A DNA stretch of 36,064 bases from Promethearchaeota archaeon (GTDB lineage Archaea > Asgardarchaeota > Lokiarchaeia > Sigyniarchaeales > SOKP01). A program made the translations under genes and the position numbers. Numbering within the stretch: the first letter of the stretch is position 1; every line of letters starts with the position of its first letter. The notes beneath the pieces are model-generated. The model was not told the origin of the DNA. It was given only the letters and a program-made list of their open reading frames with translations, and searched no databases. Positions 15,505 to 34,929 of the stretch are shown one piece after another. Location: contig SHMU01000015.1 in NCBI GenBank assembly GCA_008080765.1, positions 1 through 36,064 of the forward strand, read 5' to 3'.

Positions 15505-17820
15505 ATGAAAATTAAATTAGAATTATTATCTGATGCGCTTCCTGGTTCGGGAATGGTTTATGGTGAACTGACTGATATCGATATAACTTTCGATAAATAT
15601 GGATTTCCCTATATTCCAGGAAAAAGAATAAAGGGAATTTTAAAAGAAAATGCGCGGGATTTGATAGATATGAAAATACTTGAAATGGATGAAGAAAAAC
15701 TAAACCTTCTTTTTAGTAAAGATTTTCGGTTATCTAATGGCTATTTAGCTGATTATACAATTTATAACCAATTTATGAAATATATTACATATCAAACCAA
15801 AGGTAAAGATAAAAAACCAGATTTTTCTCAGTATTTCTATAAATCGGGAAATATTAATTATTTTGCCTATATTAGAGCGCAAACATCTATTGAATATTCC
15901 TCGGGAGTTGCTAAAAAGCATTCGTTAAGATTTTTACGAGTTCTTAAAAAAGGATTAACTTTTTACTTTGAAATCAAATTTGCTGAAAAAAACGAAAAAA
16001 ATGAGGATAATAAAGAAATTTTCGAAAAAATTTGTAAAATCACGCGAAAATTTGGAACAAGACGGACACGTGGATTTGGTACAATTAAGTTAAACCTTCT
16101 TAATGAGAATAGCGACTCTTCAACCCCAAGCTCAAAATCTTCGGCAAAAAGCTCTGATTCCAATAAAGAAGAAGAAGATGAAAATACTCAAGATAAATTA
16201 ATAGTAGAATTAAAAAATCAAGAACAAATATTAGTAGCAAATCAAATAGGGAATCACGATACAACCGAATATTTCATCCCTGGGAGCACGATTTTAGGAA
16301 CCATTGCCAAAAAATTTATTGAGGAAAAGAAAAAAGACCCTAATTTTAACGATCTTCATAATGATAACACCTTTTTTGACATATTTCTTAGTGGTAAAGT
16401 TAAATTTAGTAATCTTTATCCTAAAGCTAATGGAAAGATTTTCTATCCTTCCCCATTATTTATATCGAAAGATAAATATTTTGATAAGTTCTATGATCTA
16501 ACAAAAGTAAAACGACCTGAAGAAATTGATCTTGTAAATATTCCCTCATCATTAGTTTCAATATGTAAATCTGACTATGGTGATGGATTAGCATTAATTA
16601 CTCCTAATTTAGCGAAAAGTGTTGAATATCACCATGCTAGACCTAAGCACGACAGAACTATTGGACATGCAACAGCAGATCAAGGACAATTTTTTCAATA
16701 TGAAGTAATTAATGCAGGACAAACATTTCACGGAGAAATTATAGGATCTTCGAGTTATTTAGAGGTTATTGAAAACCTCTTAGGTACAGACGGAATTAAT
16801 CTTACTATTGGAAAGTCAAGAAGCGCTCAATATGGAAAATGCACATTAGAACTTAAAGATCCCCAAGAATTAGATGAAAGAAAACTCAGTTTATTAAAGG
16901 GTAATCGAATAATAATAACATTATTGTCAGATATGATTTTGGTAAATGAAAATGGATTTATCACACCTAATATTGAAATATTATTGAAAGAATTAATGAA
17001 AGTTTTAAACATTGATGAGGATAAAGCTGATGGAGTAAATATTGAAAAAAAATATTTGAAGTATAAAAAAATTGGTGGTTTTAAGTATGTCTGGAATCTC
17101 CCAAAACTACAAGCACAAGCAATATCTGCAGGATCTGAATTAGTCATTGAAATCCCTAAAGATCTGAAAATTGAGAAAGAAGACCTAGAGAGGGTAGATT
17201 CTCATTTCTTTGGTGTAAAAACCAAACAAGGATATGGACAAATCAAAGTTAATAGACTTAACCATACAGATGTAGTTGAAGAGAAACTTGAATATCATGT
17301 TCAAAATGTCCCAGAAAATCTGAATAGTATCAGCAAATATATTTGTTTTTGTATTTTTCAGAGAACCAAATATGATTTACAGCAAAAAGCTCATGATGAG
17401 GTTAATAAATTAAAGAAAAATGATAATGTATTCAACTTGTCTAAATCATTTATTTATCGGATTAAAAATTTGTTTGGTCTCTATGATAATAGTGCTGAAC
17501 TGGAAGATATTTTCAAAAAAATCGCAAACGAAGATGAAAAAACCGTTACAATAGAAGGTATTAAGCATTCTATTCCCACTAAATTTAGAGATGACTTTAT
17601 GAACATTTCTAATTTCATTTACTTTAATTGTAATGAAGAAAAGCTTTCTGGATTTGATAGTCTAGTTATAGAAAAGACAAAATTCATTAAAAGTGCAAAA
17701 TTCAAAGGAATCCGGGAGAATATTGATCAAGATTTAAATAAATATTTGAAATCAAAAGAGTTTGAGCTTTATAAATTATATTGCAATACACTTTTAGATG
17801 ATCTCTTATACAAAAAGTAA
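15505..17820 (+). CDS. cas7-cas5-cas11: Cas7-Cas5-Cas11 fusion (Csx10-type RAMP protein)
   Basis: Backbone subunit of a III-Dv-type complex. Residues 1-204 are a Cas7/Csm3-like RAMP domain: YGELTDIDITFD then GFPYIPGKRIKGILKENA, with candidate RNase residues Asp24/Asp26 in the usual Csm3 catalytic loop, ending in the Gly-rich RRTRGFGTIKL. A Ser/Glu linker (about 205-232) follows. Residues about 233-595 form a Cas5/Csx10-like domain (YFIPGSTILGTIAKKF, IGKSRSAQYGKCTLEL, GVKTKQGYGQIKV), which should hold the crRNA 5-prime handle. Residues about 605-771 are all helical and match in place and type the Cas11 (small subunit) part of the Synechocystis fusion; no separate Cas11 gene is present. GAGG lies 10 bases before the ATG, and the gap from cas10 is 16 bases. 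The Cas11 assignment rests on position and helical character only. Confidence 0.82.
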   Translation: MKIKLELLSDALPGSGMVYGELTDIDITFDKYGFPYIPGKRIKGILKENARDLIDMKILEMDEEKLNLLFSKDFRLSNGYLADYTIYNQFMKYITYQTKGKDKKPDFSQYFYKSGNINYFAYIRAQTSIEYSSGVAKKHSLRFLRVLKKGLTFYFEIKFAEKNEKNEDNKEIFEKICKITRKFGTRRTRGFGTIKLNLLNENSDSSTPSSKSSAKSSDSNKEEEDENTQDKLIVELKNQEQILVANQIGNHDTTEYFIPGSTILGTIAKKFIEEKKKDPNFNDLHNDNTFFDIFLSGKVKFSNLYPKANGKIFYPSPLFISKDKYFDKFYDLTKVKRPEEIDLVNIPSSLVSICKSDYGDGLALITPNLAKSVEYHHARPKHDRTIGHATADQGQFFQYEVINAGQTFHGEIIGSSSYLEVIENLLGTDGINLTIGKSRSAQYGKCTLELKDPQELDERKLSLLKGNRIIITLLSDMILVNENGFITPNIEILLKELMKVLNIDEDKADGVNIEKKYLKYKKIGGFKYVWNLPKLQAQAISAGSELVIEIPKDLKIEKEDLERVDSHFFGVKTKQGYGQIKVNRLNHTDVVEEKLEYHVQNVPENLNSISKYICFCIFQRTKYDLQQKAHDEVNKLKKNDNVFNLSKSFIYRIKNLFGLYDNSAELEDIFKKIANEDEKTVTIEGIKHSIPTKFRDDFMNISNFIYFNCNEEKLSGFDSLVIEKTKFIKSAKFKGIRENIDQDLNKYLKSKEFELYKLYCNTLLDDLLYKK

Positions 17821-17861
17821 ATAGAAAAATGAGTAGAATATCAAATTAAAAGGTAATGATT

Positions 17862-19298
17862 ATGGAGAATGAAAAAAAGAAAAATAATGGAATGAATCAA
17901 AAGGATAAGAAAGTAAAAAAATATTATGTGAAAGGTATAATTGATTTAAAGTCTCCCTTAATTATGGGTTCAGGCGAAACAGAAAATTCCGAGTGCGATA
18001 TAATTCGCGATTGGGAGGGAAAAGTTTTTATTCCAGGAACTTCCATCGCGGGAGCAGTTCGATCGTATTTATCAGAGTTTTTTTCCGAAAAAAAATTAAT
18101 CAATATGGTTTTTGGAGAAACGGAAACTACAAAATCTGGCACTACATATCAAAGTATCATAATTTTTCATGATGCCTTTTTGGTGGGTGATTCAAAACCT
18201 ATTATAACCATTAGAGATGGAATAAAAGTCGATCTGTTTAAAAAAGTTACAGAAGAAAAGAAAAAGTTTGATTTTGAAGTATTAGAACCAACTGTAAAGT
18301 TTGAATTTCGATTAGAATTAAATATTTATGAAAAGCATAGAAATACTCAAGAAAAGAATAATGAGAAAGAGAAGAAGATTGAAAAATTATTTTTTGAGAT
18401 CTTAGATGCTTTTGAAAAGGGAAGAATTAAGCTTGGAGCCAAAACTTATAGGGGTTTTGGGGATGTGATAATCAGCGAGAATGATATTGAAATTCTTAAG
18501 CTGGATTTAACAGAAAAAGAAGATGTCTGGAGATGGTTAGATTTTGAATGGTTTAATTTTCAAAAAAATATGGATTTTAAGACTTTTTCAGAAGAAATTT
18601 CAAAATTAAATATTGATTTAGCTACTAATAAAACCCTTACAAAGATAAAAGTATATTTTGACATCCCTTATTCATTACTTATTCGGCAGTACAGCTATAA
18701 AATTGGGGATGAAGCGGATGTTATAGCCCTTGAAGCAAATTATGAAGGTCAGGTAAAGCAAATCATCCCGGGTACATCCTGGACAGGAGCTCTTAGGACA
18801 GCAATTTATAATGTTTTCTTCAATCATAAAGATAATTACAAGATTGTAGAGGGGATAATAAATGAACTTTTTGGTTATGTTGACGAGAATAACTCCGATG
18901 CACAAGCTTCCCACTTGCGTATTTATGAAAGTGTTATTGAAGGGAATGAAACTATTAATTATACCAGAAATCAAGTAGATCGTTTTACTGGAGGAACTGT
19001 AGAAAGATCCTTATTTACGGAGGGTATCTCTTTTAAGGGAGAAGTAGAATTAAGATTGGATGTTGAAAACGCAGAAGAACATAAGATGGGGCTTTTATTT
19101 CTGGCGATCTCTGAGTTATGGAATGGATTACAACCAATTGGTGGAACTACAAGTGTTGGTCGCGGTATTTTGCAAGGAAAGAGGATAGAAATAACACTAC
19201 CAGATGAAGAAACCATAATTATTAATGATCCAATTAAATCCGATAAAATTCAGGAATCTTTTGATGAGTTAGCAATTTATTTAGAAGGAAAAAAGTAA
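17862..19298 (+). CDS. cas7-2x: Cas7-2x: two fused Csm3-like backbone domains
   Basis: Two RAMP domains in one chain, forming two adjacent backbone positions that bind crRNA and cut target RNA. Domain 1 (about 20-205): IDLKSPLIMGSG, SECDIIRDWEGKVFIPGTS, Gly-rich KTYRGFGDV. Domain 2 (about 260-470): IPYSLLIRQYSYKIGDEADV, QIIPGTSWTGALR, VDRFTGGTVERSLF and GGTTSVGRG. Each has an Asp in the Csm3 catalytic loop (Asp48 and Asp288, counted from an ATG at 17856), so both could be active. I chose the ATG at 17862 because AAAAGGT ends 8 bases before it; the in-frame ATG at 17856 is only two codons earlier. Duplication within one gene is the pattern of III-Dv, where this subunit follows the Cas7-Cas5-Cas11 fusion. 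Confidence 0.85.
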   Translation: MENEKKKNNGMNQKDKKVKKYYVKGIIDLKSPLIMGSGETENSECDIIRDWEGKVFIPGTSIAGAVRSYLSEFFSEKKLINMVFGETETTKSGTTYQSIIIFHDAFLVGDSKPIITIRDGIKVDLFKKVTEEKKKFDFEVLEPTVKFEFRLELNIYEKHRNTQEKNNEKEKKIEKLFFEILDAFEKGRIKLGAKTYRGFGDVIISENDIEILKLDLTEKEDVWRWLDFEWFNFQKNMDFKTFSEEISKLNIDLATNKTLTKIKVYFDIPYSLLIRQYSYKIGDEADVIALEANYEGQVKQIIPGTSWTGALRTAIYNVFFNHKDNYKIVEGIINELFGYVDENNSDAQASHLRIYESVIEGNETINYTRNQVDRFTGGTVERSLFTEGISFKGEVELRLDVENAEEHKMGLLFLAISELWNGLQPIGGTTSVGRGILQGKRIEITLPDEETIIINDPIKSDKIQESFDELAIYLEGKK

Positions 19299-19332
19299 AA
19301 AAAACAAAAAATCATAAAAAGAGGTTCTAAAG

Positions 19333-19983
19333 TTGTCATATGATAATGTAATAATAAATAATGAGAGAATTAGAGATTTTAAAGAGAAAAACATTAAGCA
19401 AATTAATACAAGAGTAAAGCCAGAATCATTACCTGGTAAAATCATAGATAAATCTTCCTTAAATGCCACAGTCAAGGAATATGTAAAATATAAAGATCAA
19501 TCCTATATTATGTTAGTACATACTGTTCACAATGTATATTTTGATAAAATTAATTTAAATACTGATTTAGATGAGGTAGTTTCAACTCTCGAATTAAAAT
19601 ATGTAGAGCAAATAAGATTTTTTTCTGAATTCTCAGAATTATTCATCTGGAAACAAGACAATAGCATATATTTCAGGTTTCGTGAGGATGAAGAAGACAA
19701 TTCTACCAAAAAAGATTCGGAAGGATATCTTTCTCGTGATTATTATGAGGAATTCCATATAATGTGGGGAACCCAATTAAAGGAAGGAAATACGCTTTTA
19801 GAAGAGGAAAGAGGAATTAAGTTAGAAATACCTTATACTTTAAAAGAGGACGCTCCCCCACCATTACGTTTTGTAGTTCGAAATTATATTGATTACGATA
19901 AAAAAGATGGATTTTTAGAATTTTTTGATGCTCGATTAGTAAAAATAATAAAGAGAGATGGTTCTGATATTTCAAATTCATAA
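19333..19983 (+). CDS. csx19: Csx19, accessory subunit of type III-D
   Basis: A 216-residue protein that I recognise by its pattern of motifs as Csx19 (TIGR03984 type): an N-terminal half rich in strands (YIMLVHTVHNVYFDKI), then QIRFFSEFSELFIWKQ, YFRFREDE, EEFHIMWGTQL, LLEEERGIKLEIP and a final LRFVVRNYIDYD followed by DARLVKI. Csx19 is a marker of type III-D and is part of the complex in the Synechocystis variant; its biochemical role is not settled. The start is a TTG at 19333, supported by AAGAGGT ending 7 bases upstream and by the lack of any in-frame ATG before the conserved region. The gap from the previous gene is 34 bases. Confidence 0.82.
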   Translation: MSYDNVIINNERIRDFKEKNIKQINTRVKPESLPGKIIDKSSLNATVKEYVKYKDQSYIMLVHTVHNVYFDKINLNTDLDEVVSTLELKYVEQIRFFSEFSELFIWKQDNSIYFRFREDEEDNSTKKDSEGYLSRDYYEEFHIMWGTQLKEGNTLLEEERGIKLEIPYTLKEDAPPPLRFVVRNYIDYDKKDGFLEFFDARLVKIIKRDGSDISNS

Positions 19984-20028
19984 AATAGAAAATTATATTA
20001 AAATTGATGTTGAGGTGAAAATTAAATA

Positions 20029-22155
20029 ATGCCAATAGAAACAGATGAAAAGTTTGTTAATCCTTACATTTTTTTACCCTTAGAAGATGGATGTCAAAAA
20101 AACATCTCTGTTAAGAATCTTAAGGAAAAAGATGATTTACTTACAGGATGGCTCTTATGTAAATTAACCACTAAATCCGCGATTTTTATTCCAAATACTT
20201 CTTATGATCAGACATTTACCTTTAGCAATTATACAATTGATGATAGTACAACGGATTTCAAGAGTCATGATTTTTTTTCCTACACACAATTAGATGAAAA
20301 TACAAAAAATCCTAAACCACCAAAACCAACAATTCCTAGTTCCGAGCTGAGAGCTGTAACCCATATTGCTTATGAATCATTGACTAATTCTTGTCTTCAA
20401 ATTATAGATGAAAGAATAACCATTCATAAAAGATTACCAAATCCAGGTAATCCAGCTCGAATTTATAAAGAAAATAAAAATTGGTTCCTAAAGGAGTGTT
20501 GGAAAGCAAAGCTTGATAAGACTAAAGTAAGTCATATTAAAAATAACCGATTTCAACTTTATGGTACAGATTATCAAGAAGGCGATCAAGTCTATGTAAA
20601 AATTAATAATAGAAATAATAAAGTTAGTAAAATTTCTAAAAAACAGACCCCAGAATGTAATATAAAAGGATACATTCATTTTTCTGCGGAATTCGGGAGA
20701 AAAAGATACGAATCCATTTTTATTGAATCAAACAATAAGCCTATTGAGATTACTAAGGAAGAAGTAGAAAAATACATGAATAATATTCAAGTCTATAAGG
20801 ATAATGATACATATTCGTGGATAAAAAGAGGTAAAAATCACTATTTAGTTTATTATAAAACAAAAAATAGTCATCATTATTTTAAACCTGGAGAAATTGG
20901 AAGAGATGTTTTTTACAATTCTATTACTGATATATTAAGGAAAAAGAACTATAATCCTTGTGTGAGTATAGACCATTTATGTCCTGCATGTTCATTATTT
21001 GGATTTACCAGTAATTTTGAAAATAAGGAAAAAAATGCTCTTGCCTCCCGGATTCGAGTAACGGATGGGGTATGTCTACAAAATGAAAATGTTGAAGATC
21101 TTTATTTTGAAAAAGGTATCTTAGAAGAATTATCGGGTCCTAAAATTCAATCCACTGAATTCTATCTTAAGCGCCCCCAATATGAAAATAATAAAAGGGT
21201 TGATTTATGGACGTTCGATTATGCTGGAAATTGGAATGGGCAACAACTGGAATGGTTAGGATCAAAGCCCTATGAACCCGAAATTTGTGGAAGGAAATTT
21301 TATTGGCATCAAAAAATAGTAACTCAAGATGATCTGCCTTACATTGATAAAGATGATGATGCAAGTAGAAAAGTTGGAGTTCGTCCTTTAAAACCCAATG
21401 TATCCTTTACATTTAAAATCTATTTTGATAATATTACTCAATTAGAACTAAAAATACTAATATGGGTTTTGGAAATTGGAAATAAGGATAATTCCTATGC
21501 TCATAAAATTGGCATGGGAAAACCACTAGGGTTAGGGAGCATAAAGATAGAAGTCCAAGAAGTTAATAAAAGAAAAGTTAAAATAGAAAATAATTCTTTA
21601 ACATATGAGATAATGAAAGATGAAGAAATCCTTACTAATGTAAGAACCCATAAAAATCCTATAGAGTTATTGGGATGCTCAAAAAACACATTGAACTATT
21701 TTAAAGCAATTACTGATTTTAATAATATTCATAAAAATATTGAATATCCTAAAAATATTGACGCCGATGAAAATTATGAATGGTTTATGTCTAATCGCAC
21801 AATTTATCCAGGATCTGCTTTTAATTGGAAAATAAATCAGCATTTATGTAATAATATTGATAATCCCGAATTAAACAAATATGGTAAAGGGAAAACACAA
21901 AAATCCGATTTAAAAGAAAAAGAGCAAAAACCGCGCTCAGGTAAGAAGATGACAGGAACCATTAAAAAAATAATCTCAAGAAAGACAAGTTTTGGATTTA
22001 TCACACCTAATGATGGGTCTGAGGATATTTTCTTCCATTTTGACGAGATTCTGGATAAGAAAGATTCAGAAACGCTCAGAGAACGTGATAAAGTTCAGTT
22101 TGAAGTAATTAAAGCTAAAAAAGGACCTCAAGCCATAAAAATAAGAAAAATATAA
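20029..22155 (+). CDS. cas7-ins: Cas7-insertion RAMP protein with C-terminal cold-shock domain (paralogue 1)
   Basis: Backbone RAMP of the TIGR03986 type. Start FVNPYIFLPL, then LTGWLLCKLTTKSAIFIPN, the RAMP turn PSSELRAVTHIAYESLTNSC, a long inserted region (about 130-320), a zinc-like knuckle LCPACSLFGF (about 323), STEFYLKRPQ, FDYAGNW and the Gly-rich HKIGMGKPLGLGSIKI. In the turn, IPSSELRA replaces the usual IPGSELRG. A Lys/Glu linker (about 625-640) leads to residues 641-708, a cold-shock domain: MTGTIKKIISRKTSFGFI (RNP1-like SFGFI) and DIFFHFDEI (RNP2-like). This fold binds single-stranded nucleic acid and could hold target RNA beside the complex. GAGGTG ends 11 bases before the ATG. The next gene is a paralogue with the same layout. 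Confidence 0.85.
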   Translation: MPIETDEKFVNPYIFLPLEDGCQKNISVKNLKEKDDLLTGWLLCKLTTKSAIFIPNTSYDQTFTFSNYTIDDSTTDFKSHDFFSYTQLDENTKNPKPPKPTIPSSELRAVTHIAYESLTNSCLQIIDERITIHKRLPNPGNPARIYKENKNWFLKECWKAKLDKTKVSHIKNNRFQLYGTDYQEGDQVYVKINNRNNKVSKISKKQTPECNIKGYIHFSAEFGRKRYESIFIESNNKPIEITKEEVEKYMNNIQVYKDNDTYSWIKRGKNHYLVYYKTKNSHHYFKPGEIGRDVFYNSITDILRKKNYNPCVSIDHLCPACSLFGFTSNFENKEKNALASRIRVTDGVCLQNENVEDLYFEKGILEELSGPKIQSTEFYLKRPQYENNKRVDLWTFDYAGNWNGQQLEWLGSKPYEPEICGRKFYWHQKIVTQDDLPYIDKDDDASRKVGVRPLKPNVSFTFKIYFDNITQLELKILIWVLEIGNKDNSYAHKIGMGKPLGLGSIKIEVQEVNKRKVKIENNSLTYEIMKDEEILTNVRTHKNPIELLGCSKNTLNYFKAITDFNNIHKNIEYPKNIDADENYEWFMSNRTIYPGSAFNWKINQHLCNNIDNPELNKYGKGKTQKSDLKEKEQKPRSGKKMTGTIKKIISRKTSFGFITPNDGSEDIFFHFDEILDKKDSETLRERDKVQFEVIKAKKGPQAIKIRKI

Positions 22156-22243
22156 CCTTTCTTATTTTCTAATTAATTGCAATTTAAATTTACAAAAAAA
22201 AAACCAATCACAGAAAAAAAAATTATCAGAAATCTATTATTCT

Positions 22244-24412
22244 ATGCCTAAGGATTATTATATTAAAACTGACGAATTGTTTATTAACCCTTATCATTTT
22301 ATTCCTTTAGATAAATCGTGTGAAAAGACTAATTCTATTAATGATTTAGAGTCAAAAAACGATTTGGTTACTGGTTGGGTTGAATGTGAATTGCATACAT
22401 TATCCCCTATTTTTATTCCTAATTCTACGAATGATGATATCTATGAAATCAAAAACATAAAAGGAGAAAAAATCCCAAGTTTTGACTTTTTTTCTTATGA
22501 AAATCTTACAAAGAAAAATCATTATGAAACAGAAGAACCAGTAATAGCTGGTAGTGAAATAAGAGGTGTTATTCGGACCATCTTTGAAGCTTTGACAAAT
22601 TCTTGTCTTTCTACTCTTGATGAAGAAATCATAAAATACAGAAGGACGACAGAAGTAGGAGAAGCAGGAATATTATATAAAGAAAATGGTAAATGGTATA
22701 TTCAACCTTGTGAAAGATGGGGTGCTCCGTTTCAGGATTTAAGAAATATTAGGCGGATATCCAATATTTCTACCTTCAAAGAGGGAGAACGTATATATGC
22801 CAGAAAATCTCATAGGAAATATAAAAATAGAATACCCTATGTAACTGACATAAGTCGAGAATATCAAGAGGGGTATGAAGAAGGATATATTCATTTTGGA
22901 GAACATTTTGGAGATAAAGAGAGAGATAGAAGACATTTCGAATCCATTCTTTTCGAAGATAAAAAGAAGATTCCAATTGAAATAGATGAAAAGATGATTG
23001 AATTATTTTTGAAAAATATTAAACTCTACAGAAATAACTCTATTAATATTTTGAAAAAAAAAGGATTCCATCATGGATACCCACGAATGCCAAAAAATAT
23101 GGAGGAATTAAACCAGATACTACAAGATAAGAATAGAAAACTCCCTGTTTTTTATACTCAACATACATATTATGATAAAAAGCAAAAAATATATATAAAC
23201 AAAACCTATTTAAATCCCGGGATGATTGGCAGGGAAGTGTATTTTAGATCTTTAAAAAAAATCGTTCAATCATATAAGCCATGTACCTCTGATAATGAAT
23301 TATGTCCTGCATGTTTATTATTTGGATTCATTAGTGAACAAAAAAAGAACAATGCACTAGGATCCAGAATCCGTTTTACCGATGCTGAATATATAAAAAG
23401 TGAAAAAAAATTATTTTTAGACCCTTTCATCTTACCAGAGCTTTCTACTCCAAAATTGTCTTCGACTGAATTTTATCTTAACCAACCTCAATCAAATTCT
23501 AATAATTATAACGCTCACTTATGGAACTATGATTATGCGGGGTATTGGACTAATGAATTTAAAGATTTTAAAAAATATATACCTGAAATTAAAGGAAGAA
23601 AATTATATTGGCATCATAAGTTCAATCCCCAAATTTCCATCCCTAAAAACTCAGCGGATCTTTCCGATAGAAATAGAGCAATAAGACCTGTTAATAAAGA
23701 AGTTTCTTTTGAATTCAAGATTTATTTTAATAATATTACTAATAAAGAACTAAAAAAATTACTGTGGACTCTCGATTTCGGGGGAAAGAGAGGCCAGGGA
23801 CACAAGATTGGCATGGGGAAACCTCTGGGATTGGGAAGTATTTCTATTGAAATAAAAGCTATCAAATTTAGAGAATTTACGATTAATAAAAGTACATTAA
23901 CCTATGATATTATTTCACAGAAACAACTTCTGGAAGATATACATAATATACATGAACCATGGAATGAATTATTAGATTGTGATTTTCCAACGTATAATAA
24001 AATTCTTAAAATAACAAATTGGGAGGAGGGTTTTTCAAACAATAATATTTGCTATCCCAATAATAGTAATGATAAGGAAAACTTCAAATGGTTTATGTTA
24101 AATAAAACATTTAGAGAAGATGCCACTGCTTTTAGATGGATAATTGATCAAAAATTACCCGATATTGAAACGCCAGAATTAAAGAAATATAAAAGGCTTA
24201 ACCCCAACGACAGAATCACCGGAAAAATAAAATGGTTTAATGAAAGAAAAGGATATGGGAATATCGAAGTACCAAATGGGATGGGTGATATTTTTATTCA
24301 TATTAAGAGCGTTTTAAATTGTAATACCTTAGAAGTTGGTGAAGAAGTTGAATTTGAAGTAAGACCATCAAATAAACGACTCTGTAATGCAGTGAATGTA
24401 AGGAAATTATAA
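22244..24412 (+). CDS. cas7-ins: Cas7-insertion RAMP protein with C-terminal cold-shock domain (paralogue 2)
   Basis: Same design as the preceding protein, clearly a paralogue: FINPYHFIPLDKSCEK, LVTGWVECELHTLSPIFIPN, AGSEIRGVIRTIFEALTNSC (closer to the family standard than paralogue 1), an insertion at about 130-345, LCPACLLFGF, STEFYLNQPQ, DYAGYW, HKIGMGKPLGLGSISI. Residues about 655-722 are a second cold-shock domain: RITGKIKWFNERKGYGNIEV (RNP1-like KGYGNI) and DIFIHIKSV, close to bacterial CspA text. No ribosome-binding site is seen, and the gap from the previous gene is 88 bases. III-Dv normally has one Cas7-insertion subunit; a pair could lengthen the backbone or be interchangeable. It was the last gene before the effector gene until the IscB element entered 73 bases downstream. 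Confidence 0.85.
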   Translation: MPKDYYIKTDELFINPYHFIPLDKSCEKTNSINDLESKNDLVTGWVECELHTLSPIFIPNSTNDDIYEIKNIKGEKIPSFDFFSYENLTKKNHYETEEPVIAGSEIRGVIRTIFEALTNSCLSTLDEEIIKYRRTTEVGEAGILYKENGKWYIQPCERWGAPFQDLRNIRRISNISTFKEGERIYARKSHRKYKNRIPYVTDISREYQEGYEEGYIHFGEHFGDKERDRRHFESILFEDKKKIPIEIDEKMIELFLKNIKLYRNNSINILKKKGFHHGYPRMPKNMEELNQILQDKNRKLPVFYTQHTYYDKKQKIYINKTYLNPGMIGREVYFRSLKKIVQSYKPCTSDNELCPACLLFGFISEQKKNNALGSRIRFTDAEYIKSEKKLFLDPFILPELSTPKLSSTEFYLNQPQSNSNNYNAHLWNYDYAGYWTNEFKDFKKYIPEIKGRKLYWHHKFNPQISIPKNSADLSDRNRAIRPVNKEVSFEFKIYFNNITNKELKKLLWTLDFGGKRGQGHKIGMGKPLGLGSISIEIKAIKFREFTINKSTLTYDIISQKQLLEDIHNIHEPWNELLDCDFPTYNKILKITNWEEGFSNNNICYPNNSNDKENFKWFMLNKTFREDATAFRWIIDQKLPDIETPELKKYKRLNPNDRITGKIKWFNERKGYGNIEVPNGMGDIFIHIKSVLNCNTLEVGEEVEFEVRPSNKRLCNAVNVRKL

Positions 24413-24484
24413 CCTAAACAAAATTTGAGAAATAGAAGATTAAAAAAAATATAAAAGGAAGAATTCAAATATAAGAGAGAACTA

Positions 24485-24504
24485 CCCTCGCCTGAAGGCG
24501 AGGG
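24485..24504. repeat. Left-end hairpin of the IscB element
   Basis: CCCTCGCC (24485-24492), loop TGAA, GGCGAGGG (24497-24504): a perfect 8-bp stem. Subterminal hairpins of this kind are bound by the Y1 transposase TnpA in IS200/IS605 elements. Confidence 0.8.
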
Positions 24505-24826
24505 CTTCGTGTGACCACGGAGCTCTTAGTTCACCAGACTGAGCGTGGAGAAATTCATGCGACAATGGACCGGTCATGACACCTTCGGTTGCCGCACCAG
24601 ACCGTTACTCTGTCACCGATGGTTAACAGCCCTGAAGGGTAGGGGTGGTAGCATCGGTGTAAAAAGCCGTTCCATCATTGTCGAGGTGAAGCCAGATTCT
24701 TTGTCTGCTCACGGGGCAAGGATACGCACTACCCGATGAGGCTCGTTGCGTGCTGACGGGCGGAGGAGGATTTACTCGAATGAGAGCACACAGAGGTAAA
24801 ACAATGGAACACCACGAAAAGGAAAG
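24505..24826 (+). ncRNA. Omega RNA region of the IscB element
   Basis: About 320 GC-rich bases directly before iscB with no protein-like frame and strong nested stems. CACCGATG (24614-24621) pairs with CATCGGTG (24652-24659), and inside it CCC-TGAA-GGG (24630-24639). IscB guide RNAs are transcribed from just this place and fold in this nested way. Their guide comes from the host sequence left of the element, here about 24460-24484 after the last Cas7 gene. The exact 5-prime end cannot be seen. Confidence 0.7.
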
Positions 24827-26106
24827 ATGCAGGTGTATGTATTGAACGAGGACGGAACGCCCTTGATGCCGTGCGTTCCCGTGATAGCACGGCTGTTGCT
24901 CAAGGAGGGAAAAGCCAGAGTCGTCATGAGATGTCCGTTCACCGTCATGCTAACGTACCATCCCGCCACCGAACACGTCCAGCCGCTAACATTGGGTCAA
25001 GATGCGGGAAGCATCGTCATGGGTGTAGGTGTGACCGATGAGCAGGGGAATGTGTATTACGCAAGTGAAGTAGAGGTAAGACACGATATCACGGGAAAAA
25101 TGGACAGGCGGCGGAAGTACCGCAGGGCAGACGCAGCCGCAAATGCCGCTATCGAAAATGCCGTTTTTTGAACCGAAAGAATTCAAGAAGAACAGACCGC
25201 TTTGCTCCGAGCATTAAGAGCAAGATTGAGGCACACCTTCGGGAGCTTTCCTTCGTACAACGCATCTTGCCCATCACGCATGTTATTATTGAAGCGGGCA
25301 TGTTTGACCCGCACGCATTACAAAACTCCGAAGTACTCAACAATCCGCAGTTATATCAACGGGGATTGAACTACGGATTTAATAACACGAAAGCGTACGT
25401 GTTGCATCGGGATGGCTACACGTGTCAACATTGTAGGGGAAAGTCGAAAGACAAGCGGTTGCATTCCCAACATATCATTTTCAAGGAACACGGCGGAAGT
25501 GATCACGCCGACAATCTGATCGCCTTGTGTAAAACGTGCCATGATCAGCTTCATGCGGGACAGTTCACGCTACGGAACAAAGGAAAGAAGAAGGGCACGC
25601 TGAAGCACGCTACGCAGATGAATGTAATTCGAACGAAAGTGCTCAAAATAAGTAAAGCAACGGAAACATTCGGCTATATCACAAAGACTCATCGAGAAGC
25701 GTTAGGATTGAAAAAGAACCATGCGATTGATGCCGTAGTGTTTGCGAGCAAGGGGAAACCGCTCACGTTCAAGATTGAAACGGGAATCCTGAAAAAATGC
25801 GTGGCAAAAGGCGATTACCAACAGACAAAAGGCGTAAGAAGTGAGCGGCGCATTCTGACAGGAAAGATTCAAGGCTTTCGCAAGTTTGACAAGGTTCGCT
25901 ATGAAGAGGGTGAATACTTTATCAAAGGACGTATGTCATCGGGCTATGCGGTTCTCATGGATATCACGGGAAAGAAGAAAGAATTCAGACCACTTCCGAA
26001 GTTTTCCAACATGAAGAGACTCTCAGCACGAACGTCACAAATGGTAATGGAATGCTCACTTCATCTCGCCTCTGAAGGGGCGAGTTTTCTTGAGCAGTCA
26101 ATATAA
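24827..26106 (+). pseudogene. iscB: IscB RNA-guided nuclease, frameshifted in the bridge helix
   Basis: Ancestor-type relative of Cas9. PLMP domain: VLNEDGTPLMPCVPVIARLL. RuvC-I: LTLGQDAGSIVMG with catalytic Asp59. Bridge helix: MDRRRKYRR, then after the shift RRSRKCRYRKCRFLNR. RuvC-II: VIIEAGMFDPHAL. HNH: VLHRDGYTCQHC, LHSQHIIFKEHGGSDHADNL, CKTCHDQLH. RuvC-III: KNHAIDAVVFAS. C-terminal part: GFRKFDKVRYEEGEYFIKGR. The frame changes at about 25127-25129: one lost base (for example GCAAGA reduced to GCAGA) throws the first frame into a stop at 25169-25171, while the +1 frame restores the Arg-rich helix exactly. All catalytic residues are otherwise present. GGAAAG lies just before the ATG. The shift may be a recent mutation, a sequencing error or, less likely, recoding. 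Confidence 0.85.
26065..26084. repeat. Right-end hairpin of the IscB element
   Basis: CTCGCCTC (26065-26072), loop TGAA, GGGGCGAG (26077-26084), an 8-bp stem with one G-T pair. It lies inside the last codons of the iscB frame. Confidence 0.75.
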
Positions 26107-26128: not shown

Positions 26129-28768
26129 ATGAATAATAATAACAATAATAATAATAAAAAGAATGGGGAACATATTCTCATTCTTAATATTGGTGGAAGT
26201 CCAATACCCAACTATGTTGTTGCCTTATTTTCTTTAATAATTGAATGGAAAATTACTTATGAACAAAACCATGAAAATAGAAAACCGATTATAAATTGTT
26301 TAGAGAGTTGTCGGAATCATATACCGAGACCTACTAAGATCATCTTAATCCATTCAACGCAAACGGAAGTTATTGCTGAAAATATTAGAGACAAGTTAAT
26401 ACAAGATAATAGAACTAGCAATTTAGGTTTCAATCATTTTATTCTGATAAATATTCATAATAATCAGAGAAATTTTAGCGCGTTAAACCAAAACCACAAA
26501 TTGTTAACAGAATTAGAACAAACCCCTAATATTTCCTCAATTCATTTCAACTATACTGGAGCAACCAAATCAATGATGCTCAGCGGATATTCTCAATGTA
26601 AAGAATTAAGTGAAGCCATGGAAGAAGATGAACAACATTTTAAACTTATTCTTTCCGATTTAACACCAAGAACTTTCTTTCTAAAATTATTAATTGAAGA
26701 ATTTCCAAATGGACAAGTCTTTTCTATTGAATTACCAGAACCGATACAGAATAATATTTTAAATGATTTAAGAGATTTAATCACTTTATCATTAGAAGAT
26801 ATTTTAGAACTTCACTCGATTGAAATAACTAATATTAATTTAGATCATAATTATCTCTACAGAACTGACAAGATTATAGAGCTTATAGAAATAAAGCTTT
26901 TTGACTATCATATTCCACTTAACTGGCAAATACATATGGAGAGATTAATAGATCAATTTGAAAATCCTCAAAATCTTAATGTGGAAATACCTATTTTAAC
27001 ACAAATCCGAAATCTTCTTAATCTTCTTGTAAATACCAATATAGAATATACAATCCCTTTATTAATTAATGGATTTGATAACGCAGAAGATTTATTGATA
27101 GAAAATGAAGTTATGGAAAATTTAATGGAAGATGATGAGTTCAGAGAACGTTTATGGGAACTCACAGAATTAATAACAGGGAGATTTTTTGAGGATTATA
27201 TTTATGAAATTATTAAAGAAAGGAATTTAGAAATATCTGTTTTAAGTTATATTTATAAAAATGTTGATGCTGAAACTCTAAATCGTAGACCAATGGAATT
27301 TGATGTTGTTATTATTAAAGGATATCAATTATTTATAGTATCAGTTACGACAAGCGTCGATCCGGAATTAGTTAAAGAGAAAGCGTTTGAGGTTCATCAT
27401 CGTGCAATTCAAATCGGAGGAGATGGTGCTAAAGGTATAGTTATATCACTCTTAGACCACCTTCAGGATAATGAGGCGGAGGAAGAAAGAGTTATAGTTA
27501 GCCATTTAAATGATGATTTTAAAAAATTAATAGGACAAGGAAAATTAAAGATATATGGTAGGAATATTATTAATACAAATAATTTGAATGCCCTTGAAGG
27601 AGATTTAGTGGATCCAATTATGCAAAACATATCAACCCATATCACATTAAAAAATACAGAAGCAAGAGAAGTTGAAATAAATTCCGATGAAAAAGAAGAT
27701 ATTTTAATCTTAAATATTGGAAGGAATCCATTACCAAATTACATTATAGCAAGGTGTGCTATATGGGAGTTCGATAATGCACAACAAGATTTAATTAAAA
27801 ATCTACCTCGTCCCACAAGAATAATAATAATTCATTCAAACAAGACTACTAACTTTGCTCATCATATCGAAGATGTATTGAGTAATATGGGAAATTTAAA
27901 TCAATTATTACCTCAAAATGCGTTTATTTACTTAAATATCGGAAATTTTCACCGAAATTTAGATTATATCAATAATCATCTATTAGCTCTTCTGAATCAA
28001 TTCAATAGTATAAATTCTTTACATTTTGGTTATATGGGTGGAACCAAACCAATGGCATTAGGAGTTTATCGAACAATCAATAACTTCATACAAAACCAAA
28101 ATATTCCTACATTGATGTATTCGGATGTAGATTCAGATTTTTTTCAAGTAAACATAAAGCTTATTAATAATAATGGAGAGTATGCCTTGATTTTCCCCAT
28201 TGCTAATAATCAAAATACTAATCAAACTTTAAGAAATTTAATAAACCTTCCAACAGATGATGTAATATATCTTTATAATTTTACGGTAAACAATCTTCCA
28301 GCAGTACAACCCAATCCGATAAATTTAGTAGATAACAATAATAATAATTTATTTATTGATAATCAAACTATTGAAAATTTAATAAAAAATGCTGGATTTG
28401 ACCCTAATACTATCAACCTTATTACTGATCGAAAATTCGGGCATCAGATTTCACCTATTAGATTTTTATTTTCCATTGGATATCAACTTTTTCTTATCAC
28501 ATTTTCTACAGCTGAAAAAATAGGAGCAATAAAGAAAGATGCATTTGAAGCGAAATATCTTTCTGAAATCCTTGGAGGGGAATATGCCATTGGGATTTTA
28601 TTAATACAACAAAACTTAAACCATAATCAATTTGCTGCTTTAAGGGAAGATTTAGCTGAATTTCAAGCTAAAAAAACGTGTATTATCTTAGATGGAACTC
28701 ATATCAATTTATTAACGCAAGTAATTGAAAACGGGAATACTATGAATGCATGGAATAATCTCGTCTAA
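26129..28768 (+). CDS. can1: Can1-like protein: CARF, nuclease fold, CARF, nuclease fold
   Basis: Expected to bind cyclic oligoadenylate from Cas10. After an Asn run (residues 2-9) come CARF-1 (about 14-200; LILNIGGSPIPNYVVAL, RPTKIILIHSTQTEVIAENI, HFNYTGATKSMM), a linker, nuclease fold 1 (about 330-480; GRFFEDYIYEIIKE, RPMEFDVVIIKGYQLF, KEKAFEVHHRAIQIGGDGAK), CARF-2 (about 520-690; LILNIGRNPLPNYIIAR, RPTRIIIIHSNKTTNFAHHI, HFGYMGGTKPMALG) and nuclease fold 2 (about 745-870; FLFSIGYQLFLITFST, KKDAFEAKYLSEILGGEYA). This order is that of Can1, and the halves resemble Can2/Card1. In fold 1 Asp392 stays, but the usual CK before Thr reads VT (Thr407); in fold 2 both Asp (Leu780) and Lys (Ser793) are gone. 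DNA cutting is thus doubtful. AGGA precedes the ATG. It was probably the last gene of the cas operon before the IscB insertion. Confidence 0.8.
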   Translation: MNNNNNNNNKKNGEHILILNIGGSPIPNYVVALFSLIIEWKITYEQNHENRKPIINCLESCRNHIPRPTKIILIHSTQTEVIAENIRDKLIQDNRTSNLGFNHFILINIHNNQRNFSALNQNHKLLTELEQTPNISSIHFNYTGATKSMMLSGYSQCKELSEAMEEDEQHFKLILSDLTPRTFFLKLLIEEFPNGQVFSIELPEPIQNNILNDLRDLITLSLEDILELHSIEITNINLDHNYLYRTDKIIELIEIKLFDYHIPLNWQIHMERLIDQFENPQNLNVEIPILTQIRNLLNLLVNTNIEYTIPLLINGFDNAEDLLIENEVMENLMEDDEFRERLWELTELITGRFFEDYIYEIIKERNLEISVLSYIYKNVDAETLNRRPMEFDVVIIKGYQLFIVSVTTSVDPELVKEKAFEVHHRAIQIGGDGAKGIVISLLDHLQDNEAEEERVIVSHLNDDFKKLIGQGKLKIYGRNIINTNNLNALEGDLVDPIMQNISTHITLKNTEAREVEINSDEKEDILILNIGRNPLPNYIIARCAIWEFDNAQQDLIKNLPRPTRIIIIHSNKTTNFAHHIEDVLSNMGNLNQLLPQNAFIYLNIGNFHRNLDYINNHLLALLNQFNSINSLHFGYMGGTKPMALGVYRTINNFIQNQNIPTLMYSDVDSDFFQVNIKLINNNGEYALIFPIANNQNTNQTLRNLINLPTDDVIYLYNFTVNNLPAVQPNPINLVDNNNNNLFIDNQTIENLIKNAGFDPNTINLITDRKFGHQISPIRFLFSIGYQLFLITFSTAEKIGAIKKDAFEAKYLSEILGGEYAIGILLIQQNLNHNQFAALREDLAEFQAKKTCIILDGTHINLLTQVIENGNTMNAWNNLV

Positions 28769-29213: not shown

Positions 29214-32200
29214 TGCTAAATCTTCATGGTGAAGCTAAGTTGTGTGCTACTGAATATACCGAATGCAGATTTAAAGGTATTGAAGCAGAATATGTTTCAA
29301 TCTTCATGGTGAAGCTATGTTGTAAGCTACAAAAGCAGTCTATGATCATTTCAACAAGGGAAAGGCTCGTTTCAATCTTCATGTTGAAGCTATGTTGTAT
29401 GCTACGAAATATAGTAAAAGGGATTTAATTTATCATTCGAAAGTTTCAATCTTCATGTTGAAGCTATGTTGTATGCTACGAAATATAGTAAAAGGGATTT
29501 AATTTATCATTCGAAAGTTTCAATCTTCATGTTGAAGCTATGTTGTATGCTACGAAATATAGTAAAAGGGATTTAATTTATCATTCGAAAGTTTCAATCT
29601 TCATGTTGAAGCTATGTTCTCTGCTACCTAATCGTTTAAAATTGGTATCTATATCAGGAAAAAAGTTTCAATCTTCATGGTGTAGCTATGATTGTCTTGA
29701 TTATGATGAATGTAGTTTCAATCTTCTTGTTGAAGCTATGTTCTCTGCTACTGCAACTACTGTTTTTGCTAATAATATTATAACAATGTTTCAATCTTCT
29801 TGTTGAAGCTATGTTCTCTGCTACCTCAATCCTTTGCTTGATTATTTTATCATAGAAAATAAGTTTCAATCTTCTTGTTGAAGCTATGTTCTCTGCTACC
29901 TAATCGTTTAAAATTGGTATCTATATCAGGAAAAAAGTTTCAATCTTCTTGTTGAAGCTATGTTCTCTGCTACAGGAAATACTCAAACATATAAAAGAAG
30001 CCGTCGAATGTGTTGTTTCAATCTTCTTGTTGAAGCTATGTTCTCTGCTACCACCTAAAATTTATAAATAGAAATAAAGTTAAAAAAAGTTTCAATCTTC
30101 TTGTTGAAGCTATGTTCTCTGCTACAAATTGATTAAAATCGGAAAGGAGCATGGATATGGAACGTTTCAATCTTCTTGTTGAAGCTATGTTCTCTGCTAC
30201 AATATAAACATAATACTCTGGGTAAATTTCCAGAGTAGGTTTCAATCTTCTTGTTGAAGCTATGTTCTCTGCTACTAGATATTCCCATTTGTTTCAATCG
30301 TTAATATTTCGTCATGTTTCAATCTTCTTGTTGAAGCTATGTTCTCTGCTACCTGTAAACTGAGAGATCTTGGGTGGTTTCGTAAAAAACTGTTTCAATC
30401 TTCTTGTTGAAGCTATGTTCTCTGCTACAAAGTTGTTAGCACTAAATATGAATCTGTACCTGTGTTTCAATCTTCTTGTTGAAGCTATGTTCTCTGCTAC
30501 AGTTTTACAGGACTTACAAGGGAACATCAAATAAAAATAGTTTCAATCTTCTTGTTGAAGCTATGTTCTCTGCTACAGAAAGAATAATTGCCTAAAAATT
30601 AATAAAGAAGGGTTAGTTTCAATCTTCTTGTTGAAGCTATGTTCTCTGCTACAGGATGTTGACGCAAGATTCTGCGTCATATCTTGCGTTTCAATCTTCT
30701 TGTTGAAGCTATGTTCTCTGCTACAGGATGTTGACGCAAGATTCTGCGTCATATCTTGCGTTTCAATCTTCTTGTTGAAGCTATGTTCTCTGCTACAGGA
30801 TGTTGACGCAAGATTCTGCGTCATATCTTGCGTTTCAATCTTCTTGTTGAAGCTATGTTCTCTGCTACTGCTATGATGGAAGCTTTTAAGAAAATGGTTG
30901 AGTCCATGTTTCAATCTTCTTGTTGAAGCTATGTTCTCTGCTACAATCCTACTCCATGTGTGGGAAGATTATTAATTTGTGTTTCAATCTTCTTGTTGAA
31001 GCTATGTTCTCTGCTACGCAATAAAGAGATTTTGATGCCCGAAACAGTAATACCGTTTCAATCTTCTTGTTGAAGCTATGTTCTCTGCTACTCTCAAAAA
31101 GACGAAATATGTTATATTATGATGAAAACAAGTTTCAATCTTCTTGTTGAAGCTATGTTCTCTGCTACGTAATTGAACATCCAAGAACAAAACATAGCAA
31201 AAAACCGTTTCAATCTTCTTGTTGAAGCTATGTTCTCTGCTACGCAGTAGGACTTCATTGTTTATGTGATATGAGAATAGTTTCAATCTTCTTGTTGAAG
31301 CTATGTTCTCTGCTACAAGAGAATCCCCTCTTGATTACAACAATCCCAACAATAATGAGTTATGTTTCAATCTTCTTGTTGAAGCTATGTTCTCTGCTAC
31401 TACTTACAGGTTGATACTGTACTGTATCATCTTCATTCAGTTTCAATCTTCTTGTTGAAGCTATGTTCTCTGCTACAACATCGAAGGTAGGATGTACGCA
31501 ATGCCAGAGAAAAAATATGAGTTTCAATCTTCTTGTTGAAGCTATGTTCTCTGCTACGGGAGATAATTGCGTTATCTCCTATGGGATAACAAGCATCCAG
31601 TTTCAATCTTCTTGTTGAAGCTATGTTCTCTGCTACACCGCCCCCGTATTCTGTACTATTTGTTCAAGGTTTCAATCTTCTTGTTGAAGCTATGTTCTCT
31701 GCTACATCTCTCAGTTTACAGCTATTTGAGAGATCTTAATGTTGGTTTCAATCTTCTTGTTGAAGCTATGTTCTCTGCTACAAGGACTCTATCCATCCTC
31801 CCGAGATGCTGTTCTAACGTTTCAATCTTCTTGTTGAAGCTATGTTCTCTGCTACAAAGTATGGAATCAAGCAAACACTGAGGAGTTTTTACAGTTTCAA
31901 TCTTCTTGTTGAAGCTATGTTCTCTGCTACTTTGGAGAATAACCCGAACTGTGATACTCCTACACTTAAGTTTCAATCTTCTTGTTGAAGCTATGTTCTC
32001 TGCTACGATGAGCCAAATTGTTGTTTATATTTCAACTTTTTCAGGTTTCAATCTTCTTGTTGAAGCTATGTTCTCTGCTACAAAGGGATTGGATTCATGC
32101 TCTTCAAACCGGAGAGATGTTTCAATCTTCTTGTTGAAGCTATGTTCTCTGCTACAAGTTTTTTAAGATATATGATAAGGACTTAGAGGCTATGTTTCAA

Positions 32201-34929
32201 TCTTCTTGTTGAAGCTATGTTCTCTGCTACAAGTTATGCTCTAAAACATCTATTTGAATATCTAAACAGTTTCAATCTTCTTGTTGAAGCTATGTTCTCT
32301 GCTACAATCGTAGTAAAAAACAAATGTAAGAAGGGGAATGGAAGGTTTCAATCTTCTTGTTGAAGCTATGTTCTCTGCTACTTTAATAATAAGGAGTTTA
32401 AGATATAATTATGGTAAGTTTCAATCTTCTTGTTGAAGCTATGTTCTCTGCTACAATAAGGTAAAAAACCTTATTGAAAAAAAAGATTATGTTTCAATCT
32501 TCTTGTTGAAGCTATGTTCTCTGCTACTTTTAGAAACACAAAATTCACAAAAACATCCTTCGTAAAGTTTCAATCTTCTTGTTGAAGCTATGTTCTCTGC
32601 TACACGAGAATATTGTCACGGAAAAAAAAGAACTAAGAAAGTTTCAATCTTCTTGTTGAAGCTATGTTCTCTGCTACTACACAATGGATATTGTGTAAGA
32701 GATTATAATAAGTTTCAATCTTCTTGTTGAAGCTATGTTCTCTGCTACTAAAGTCTGGAATCAGACCAACACAGAGGAGTTTTTACAGTTTCAATCTTCT
32801 TGTTGAAGCTATGTTCTCTGCTACAATGAGAAACACAGAAGTTAATAATACATGTGATAAATGTGTTTCAATCTTCTTGTTGAAGCTATGTTCTCTGCTA
32901 CAAAAAGAGGCTGAAAACATACTGTTGCTTAGCTGGACGTTTCAATCTTCTTGTTGAAGCTATGTTCTCTGCTACATTTTACAATTATATTTTTTCTCTA
33001 ACTCTTTACAAATGTTTCAATCTTCTTGTTGAAGCTATGTTCTCTGCTACGTGTAACTCCGACCCAGATCATCTATGTTTTTACTATGTTTCAATCTTCT
33101 TGTTGAAGCTATGTTCTCTGCTACGAAAAAATTGATGCTGATTTTATAAATCAGATAATAAGGTTTCAATCTTCTTGTTGAAGCTATGTTCTCTGCTACG
33201 AACCAGATTGATTCTCTCCACTCCCGGTTGTTGCATATGTTTCAATCTTCTTGTTGAAGCTATGTTCTCTGCTACATTTTGTTATGATTTACACTAAAGT
33301 AATCATAACCATTTGTTTCAATCTTCTTGTTGAAGCTATGTTCTCTGCTACAGGTTAACTGCGACTATTGTCGCAGTTTAACCGAAAGTTTCAATCTTCT
33401 TGTTGAAGCTATGTTCTCTGCTACTACGTATTGTTATGCAGCAAGAATGGCTAAGCAATATAGTTTCAATCTTCTTGTTGAAGCTATGTTCTCTGCTACA
33501 AAAAACATTTAAAAAAGAGGCTAAAAATGATGTTAAAAAGTTTCAATCTTCTTGTTGAAGCTATGTTCTCTGCTACCACAAGATAATGGCTGGACAGGGA
33601 GGAATTTGATTAACGTTTCAATCTTCTTGTTGAAGCTATGTTCTCTGCTACCCTTATTGTTTCCAAATCTCTGAGCAGAAATATAGTGTTTCAATCTTCT
33701 TGTTGAAGCTATGTTCTCTGCTACCTGCGTAGCTGGGGTTATAGATTTTTAATTTAAGGTTTAGTTTCAATCTTCTTGTTGAAGCTATGTTCTCTGCTAC
33801 TACCAATACTTTACTTCCCCCTGCGACAGCACCATCGTTTCAATCTTCTTGTTGAAGCTATGTTCTCTGCTACGGAAGAAGAAATGCGTGAACTAATGGA
33901 GGAACATAATATAGTTTCAATCTTCTTGTTGAAGCTATGTTCTCTGCTACAATCCAGAATCTTATTACTCTGCTTTCAAGATTGAAAAGTTTCAATCTTC
34001 TTGTTGAAGCTATGTTCTCTGCTACATTTACAAGAGAAACCAGATTTATTAGATTTGTTTTTGAAGTTTCAATCTTCTTGTTGAAGCTATGTTCTCTGCT
34101 ACTTTTAACGGGAGTTATAATTCCTTTTCTAAATTCCCAGTTCGTTTCAATCTTCTTGTTGAAGCTATGTTCTCTGCTACTCTCATGCTCCATGTGGCAA
34201 GGAGAAGACTCCTATTAGTTTCAATCTTCTTGTTGAAGCTATGTTCTCTGCTACAAAAATAAAAAGCATATTTACTAAAATTAAAGATATAAGGGTTTCA
34301 ATCTTCTTGTTGAAGCTATGTTCTCTGCTACAATATCAAGATCAAGACAGGCGATTTTTAATGGAATAAGGTTTCAATCTTCTTGTTGAAGCTATGTTCT
34401 CTGCTACTATCATATCCATTGTTATTTTCATTTTACTTCACCTTAAGTTTCAATCTTCTTGTTGAAGCTATGTTCTCTGCTACCATTAGCTAAAAATAAG
34501 AAGATAATCACTGCGATCGTTTCAATCTTCTTGTTGAAGCTATGTTCTCTGCTACTAAGGCATCAATGTGGCAAGGAGATGGTTCCTTTTAGTTTCAATC
34601 TTCTTGTTGAAGCTATGTTCTCTGCTACAGTAATAATAAAAACAATTGATGGAGAGTATCTATCTCCGTTTCAATCTTCTTGTTGAAGCTATGTTCTCTG
34701 CTACAAATGAAATATTCAATTTGAGTAGTTCTGAAGCTTCTACGTTTCAATCTTCTTGTTGAAGCTATGTTCTCTGCTACGAAGGGATAAAAATTCCGCT
34801 GGATGATGCGATGAAAAAGTTTCAATCTTCTTGTTGAAGCTATGTTCTCTGCTACAGAACCCACAATTTCAGAATACAAGAATAGTATAAATGTTTCAAT
34901 CTTCTTGTTGAAGCTATGTTCTCTGCTAC
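29214..34929 (-). CRISPR. CRISPR array 2: 77 repeats of 37 bp, 76 spacers
   Basis: The plus-strand repeat starts GTTTCAATCTTCTTGTTGAA and ends GCTATGTTCTCTGCTAC; on the minus strand it ends ATTGAAAC. It differs from array 1 by T for A at position 13, which breaks one pair of the repeat stem, and C for T at position 31. The left-most repeats are worn (29214, 29294), so the leader is on the right and transcription runs leftward, towards the Can1-like gene. Identical spacers: 29406, 29480 and 29554; 29628 and 29900; 30653, 30725 and 30797. The unit at 29665 has a damaged repeat (ends GATTGTCTTGA) and only about 13 bases before the next repeat. From 29715 to the right the repeats are essentially uniform, a sign of a well-kept array. 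Confidence 0.98.

Follow-up and report, generated by a model that had tools for sequence, protein, structure and literature searches.

A tandem Can2-type effector with one apparently intact and one degenerate nuclease domain in the type III-D CRISPR locus of an Asgard archaeon

The window analysed here is an entire contig of 36,064 nucleotides from a Promethearchaeota archaeon, whose genome assembly comprises 3.9 Mb in 274 contigs and is 73% complete. The window contains a type III-D CRISPR locus. Its Cas10 gene (13725–15488, + strand) encodes a protein that begins with the palm fold, lacks the HD nuclease domain and carries the palm motifs IDGND and, in palm 2, NGDD. This Cas10 is likely to be the enzyme that makes the cyclic oligoadenylate messenger. 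Cas10 variants at the first position of the second motif, namely AGDD, SGDD, DGDD, EGDD and KGDD, have been found in effector loci, in a list from which NGDD is absent (PMC11229360), and a type III-D relative with the same gene order and a Can2 beside Cas10 has EGDD. As such first-position variants occur in effector loci, a working cyclase is plausible for the NGDD protein as well. No other Cas10 was found in the host genome in its 73% complete assembly.

The other type III-D effector genes follow on the same strand (15505–24412, +). Annotation searches including PADLOC assigned them to a Csx10/Cas5 fused to a Csm3-like part, a Cas7, a Csx19 and two TIGR03986 Cas7 proteins. These last two form an adjacent Cas7-like pair (20029–22155 and 22244–24412, +), and each carries a cold-shock domain at its C-terminus (E = 2e-17 and 7e-15); a search of a collection of papers found none on the combination of a TIGR03986 Cas7-like protein with a cold-shock domain. 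The cas genes are separated from the effector gene that we describe below by an inserted IscB element (24477–26106, +), which has a GC content of 49% compared to about 29% around it. It consists of a HEARO/omega RNA and, behind it, an IscB gene whose reading frame breaks in two at about 25168, following a T run. Downstream of the effector lies a CRISPR array (29715–34929) with 70 identical 37-nt repeats and degenerate copies at 29.2–29.7 kb, in which one spacer occurs three times consecutively near 30655–30830. The reverse complement of the repeat ends in ATTGAAAC, from which we infer that the crRNA is probably read from the − strand. On the other side of cas10, a gene on the − strand (11863–12546) encodes a stand-alone CARF protein of 227 aa that is akin to CARF-HEPN proteins in their CARF part and has no HEPN domain; it is possibly a ring nuclease or a regulator. 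Two long TPR-repeat proteins are encoded upstream of the CRISPR locus (8104–10539, + and 805–2355, −).

The effector gene is a single open frame (26129–28768, +) that encodes 879 aa without an internal stop. It lies on the same strand as the type III-D cas genes and thus in the context of a type III ancillary effector. The first-pass annotation had read its domain order as CARF-nuclease-CARF-nuclease and had likened this order to that of Can1. The order was confirmed by PADLOC, phmmer searches against the PDB and the family alignment: PADLOC calls the protein CARF4--CARF_PDDEXK (E = 1.4e-77, in three stretches), and a profile search of the whole genome yields two separate matches inside this one open frame. 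The likeness to the Can1 architecture, with all four domains in one chain, therefore holds. The first half consists of CARF domain 1 (residues 13–205; 26165–26743, +), supported by PADLOC CARF4 matches, by alignments and by a confident core in the AlphaFold2 (AF2) model, and of nuclease domain 1 (residues 331–485; 27119–27583, +). A linker (residues 486–517; 27584–27679, +) joins the halves, with low pLDDT at residues 486–490 and 510–519. The second half consists of CARF domain 2 (residues 518–703; 27680–28237, +), which corresponds to the second profile match (1.3e-23) and has a pLDDT mostly above 80 in a model of half 2, and of a nuclease-like domain 2 (residues 745–879; 28361–28765, +), recognised by alignments and by its Can2-like fold in the same model.

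By sequence, the best match of half 1 in the PDB is the Can2 of Thermoanaerobacter brockii (TbrCan2; phmmer, 5.1e-19; PDB 8q3y–8q44), a member of the DUF1887/CARF4-PD-(D/E)xK family with the same order of domains. TbrCan2 is also the best match by fold. The full-length AF2 model has a pLDDT of 72, which rises to about 93–95 across residues 381–440 of nuclease 1, and a pTM of 0.60; it comes without an inter-domain error map, so that the packing of the halves cannot be read from it. A fold search with this model returned TbrCan2 first (8q42, E = 5.3e-22; apo structure 8q3y, TMt 0.69), and the match to Can1 was weak (TMt 0.29). The model thus supports the fold of half 1 and not the arrangement of the two halves. 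Card1 of Treponema, SthCan2 and VC1899 share the overall fold and the E-x-D site with the 879-aa protein but lie further away in sequence (profile E = 1e-22 to 5e-6); they stand for the branches against which the first-pass annotation had measured it.

The first-pass annotation had proposed that the protein is nuclease-dead in both halves, and for half 1 this proposal relied on the absence of the lysine of the ECK motif of Can1 and Card1. Our alignment confirms that Thr407 stands in the column of the TtCan1 lysine. The ECK motif is, however, the wrong yardstick, since the nearest family is the TbrCan2 branch. We compared half 1 to 36 distinct relatives of one unit each, drawn from further Asgard genomes and from groups such as Bacillota, Nitrospirota and Desulfobacterota, and at position 407 these have Thr in 29 cases, Ser in four, Lys in two and Gly in one. 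Thr is thus the norm at this position in the S-x-T-T branch of Can2, and the lack of the E-x-K lysine does not amount to a dead half 1. TbrCan2 itself reportedly has an S-x-T-T-S active site, as described by Jungfer et al. in 2024.

All other residues of this site are present in half 1 as well. The motif FELDIFLINGYQLIGISLTTSSTRELCKLKGFEV of TbrCan2 aligns to MEFDVVIIKGYQLFIVSVTTSVDPELVKEKAFEV, and the residues E-x-D, S-x-T-T-S, E, K, FE, R, Q and GG are the same in both proteins. The E-x-D pair of the metal site, E390-F391-D392 (27296–27304, +), corresponds to E341 of TbrCan2, E276/D278 of SthCan2 and E541/D543 of TtCan1, and the mutant E276A/D278A of SthCan2 is inactive (PMC7969007). The motif S405-V-T-T-S409 (27341–27355, +) includes Thr407 and was aligned by phmmer and in the family alignment. 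Further downstream is the helix lysine K416 (27374–27376, +). Among the 36 homologues, E390 is shared by 33, and D392, S405, K416, the FE at 420–421, R425 and Q428 are shared by every one; half 1 is identical to the family at all these positions and at 407, and it has all the residues that characterise this branch of Can2 (E-x-D, S-x-T-T-S, K, FE, R, Q and GG). In a separate alignment, half 1 retained every family-invariant column, namely G22, P25, K147, H229, G351, E355, D392, S405, K416, F420, E421, R425, Q428 and G431. Furthermore, the titles of the PDB entries of TbrCan2 with DNA name the mutants E341A and E364R (the numbering of the crystallised chain is two higher than that of the titles), and both positions have their glutamate in half 1 (E390 and E413). 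Lys397, which had been put forward as a migrated catalytic lysine, was rejected in this role: its place is the turn that precedes G398, where the family is variable (relatives have N, K or others). K416 is a candidate for a catalytic lysine that could take the role of the missing one. Half 1 thus has the appearance of an ordinary Can2 nuclease and probably works.

In half 2, the claim of a dead nuclease stands. With the GYQL turn as an anchor, E390-F-D392 aligns with P776-I-R778 (28454–28462, +), and the S-x-T is replaced by T791-F-S793 (28499–28507, +). Both the Asp and the Lys are lost as stated earlier and Ser793 is indeed in the column of the Lys, but the equivalent of the Asp is Arg778 rather than Leu780. 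The losses extend to the Arg (L811), the Gln (I814) and the counterpart of E413 (G799), so that P776 and G799 occupy the positions of E341 and E364 of TbrCan2. Half 2 has no metal-binding set and no acidic residue at either metal-binding strand, and its nuclease is dead as far as this can be judged from the residues. The model of half 2 (pLDDT 83) nevertheless retains a Can2-like fold, with TbrCan2 as its best match in the PDB.

Could both halves be dead, so that the protein is a sponge for cyclic oligoadenylates or a sensor that recruits another effector? Half 2 is dead, the CARF signatures are largely kept and position 407 has no Lys, all of which would fit. We consider this reading very unlikely since half 1 misses no invariant residue, since Thr407 is normal in the branch and since TbrCan2, with the same motif, was crystallised with DNA substrates. 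With the complete Can2-branch set in half 1, the readings of the protein as a sponge, a recruiter or a ring nuclease lose their main support.

The CARF signatures remain in both halves, as noted before. CARF1 has TGATKSM (residues 143–149, including K147; 26555–26575, +), where the family has TGGTK; the Gly that is replaced by A145 is present in 36 of 36 homologues. CARF2 has MGGTKPM (residues 636–642, including K640; 28034–28054, +) with Met636 in place of the Thr, and it retains G531, P534 and K640. In addition, both CARFs have an Asp where a Tyr is usual in the family of TbrCan2: D177 in CARF1 (26657–26659, +) and D666 in CARF2 (28124–28126, +). The Tyr is found in 34 of the 36 relatives, and D177 is motif-aligned with Tyr118 of SthCan2, which bonds a phosphate of cA4 (PMC7969007). 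The two CARFs also diverge in different ways (A145 compared to M636, T179 compared to D668). The same change from Tyr to Asp occurs in a single-unit Can2 encoded directly before cas10 in another III-D operon (L051; 7775–9067 and neighbours), and this protein possibly points to a Can2 family with a changed messenger pocket.

Given the Asp in both CARFs together with A145 and M636, the binding of cA4 is not to be assumed. From the family, cA4 is the default ligand, yet these residues would allow a different one. A more specific version of this idea is that an asymmetric pocket (A145 and D177 on one side, M636 and D666 on the other) binds a ligand other than cA4 or an asymmetric or mixed one, with the dead nuclease 2 acting as a fixed clamp that alters the choice of substrate; we regard this as a tentative suggestion that is more doubtful than probable. 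CARFs of other families can cut cyclic oligoadenylates, and both pockets are unusual here, which might be taken to suggest a ring nuclease or another messenger-degrading CARF protein. Can1 and Can2 have however been tested and showed no ring-nuclease activity (PMC7969007, PMC9704534), and the nuclease 1 that appears intact makes a pure ring-nuclease role unlikely. We thus give this explanation almost no weight.

When comparing the halves to each other and to their relatives, we find that the best match of half 2 is half 1 (89 bits, with the next match at 68). In an IQ-TREE phylogeny the halves are sisters (support 97/85); both are long branches, a situation in which, according to a warning from the program, the grouping may be spurious. 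The closeness of half 2 to half 1 makes an internal duplication of a Can2 the most likely origin of the gene. A duplication introduced by the assembly was rejected as the source, as the halves are just about 30% identical. When one half is left out, the nearest sequence to either half is the same protein (L040), a Can2 with one unit only, whose genome belongs to the Thermoanaerobacter phylum; its gene immediately precedes cas10 in a III-D operon composed of the same types of genes. This protein shares the Asp with both halves, and the change from Tyr to Asp is thus probably older than the fusion. The simplest account of these sequences is that a Can2 of a III-D locus that already had the Asp was duplicated internally and that the second copy then lost catalysis.

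To estimate how rare such a tandem is, profiles were searched in 228 Asgard genomes and in 396 and 399 other genomes sampled from two bacterial phyla, with small overlaps. Matches occurred in 33 genomes besides the host, and every open frame was at most 500 aa long, so that no second tandem Can2 was found in these roughly 1,000 genomes; tandems may exist elsewhere. No relative, tandem or single, was detected by tblastn against phage records or by alignment-based pattern scans of viral contigs, a pattern scan with the single protein found no relative, and a search of plasmids returned one distant DUF1887 protein.

The presence of the tandem in a single genome, the lost active-site residues of half 2 and the IscB element that separates the effector from the cas genes could also indicate a decaying gene, with half 2 degenerating after the duplication and little function left in the protein. 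Such decay is highly improbable in our view, as all 879 codons are open without a stop and CARF2 has kept its fold and its Lys. Furthermore, the losses are mostly in the nuclease part: between the halves, the CARFs have 34.7% identity and the nucleases 22.6%. This resembles selective retention and is expected if both CARFs remain in use.

Half 1 has a CARF followed by a TbrCan2-related nuclease with E-x-D, S-x-T-T and the invariant residues that define this branch of Can2, a residue set that half 2 lacks. At about 437 aa, TbrCan2 comprises one unit, and Can2 proteins are single CARF-nuclease units of about 350–500 aa. Here, in contrast, two units are fused into 879 aa, the second of them catalytically dead by its residues, and we thus file the protein as a fused Can2 derivative and not as a plain Can2. 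It is also distinct from Can1. TtCan1 of Thermus thermophilus (PDB 6sce) likewise has the order CARF-nuclease-CARF-nuclease, with one nuclease that has active-site residues and one that does not, but its live half is C-terminal whereas here it is N-terminal, and its active site is E-x-D...E-x-K instead of E-x-D...S-x-T-T. Half 1 resembles Can2 more closely than it does the N- or the C-terminal half of Can1. The PADLOC models of Can1 (PDLC01902 and PDLC01069) recognise TtCan1 at E = 0 and match neither the 879-aa protein nor either of its halves. Together with the residue pattern, a dead C-terminal half and an N-terminal E-x-D...S-x-T, this led us to reject membership in Can1, which earlier work describes as confined to the genus Thermus (PMC9704534). 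In effect, the protein is a mirror-image and independently made analogue of Thermus Can1, with the active half first. Another dimeric CARF effector that was duplicated and fused in type III-D loci is Csm6-2 (CARF-HEPN-CARF-HEPN; PMC11229360); it is a HEPN ribonuclease rather than a PD-(D/E)xK nuclease, and active-site residues were reported in both of its halves.

We therefore come to the reading that we hold to be likely, from the sequence and its relatives: the gene encodes a single-chain fused Can2 that is triggered by a cyclic oligoadenylate and has one live site, in nuclease 1, within the type III-D locus of an Asgard archaeon. The Cas10 without an HD domain would make the messenger. CARF1 and CARF2 of one chain would then pair as a pseudo-dimer and form a single pocket for it. 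As the full-length model is blind to packing, this pairing is proposed by analogy to Can1, a single chain with one live and one nuclease-like domain that binds one cA4 (PMC6981274, PMC9704534), and to Can2. Binding of the messenger would close nuclease 1 against the nuclease-like domain 2, itself inert, which would provide the second wall of the substrate cleft, and nuclease 1 may then cut single-stranded DNA or RNA or nick DNA without sequence guidance.

Alternatively, two chains of 879 aa might form a homodimer, in which the partners of CARF1 and nuclease 1 are CARF1' and nuclease 1' of the other chain. There would then be two live sites as in an ordinary Can2, and the two copies of half 2 would form a further pair of sensors, regulatory or scaffolding in role, that binds messenger in a pocket of its own. 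In favour of this, Can2 itself forms a homodimer (PMC9704534), half 1 retains the entire family signature, and the different divergence of the CARFs (A145/M636, T179/D668) could fit a self-pairing of each CARF. Can1 and Csm6-2, the analogues with fused units that have been described so far, act however as single chains (PMC9704534, PMC11229360), and one live and one dead nuclease is the pattern that a single-chain pair would tolerate. We thus regard the homodimer as unlikely and the single-chain fused Can2 as the better explanation.

The fused design with one live and one dead nuclease is the same as in Can1, here from a different branch of Can2, in an Asgard archaeon and with the live half at the opposite end. 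Our comparison also corrects an error of reading, as a Can2 of the S-x-T-T branch that lacks the E-x-K lysine need not be dead. If confirmed, the protein would suggest that fusion of a dimeric CARF nuclease can repeatedly lead to the loss of one of its two active sites, and that it is irrelevant whether the live half comes first or last.
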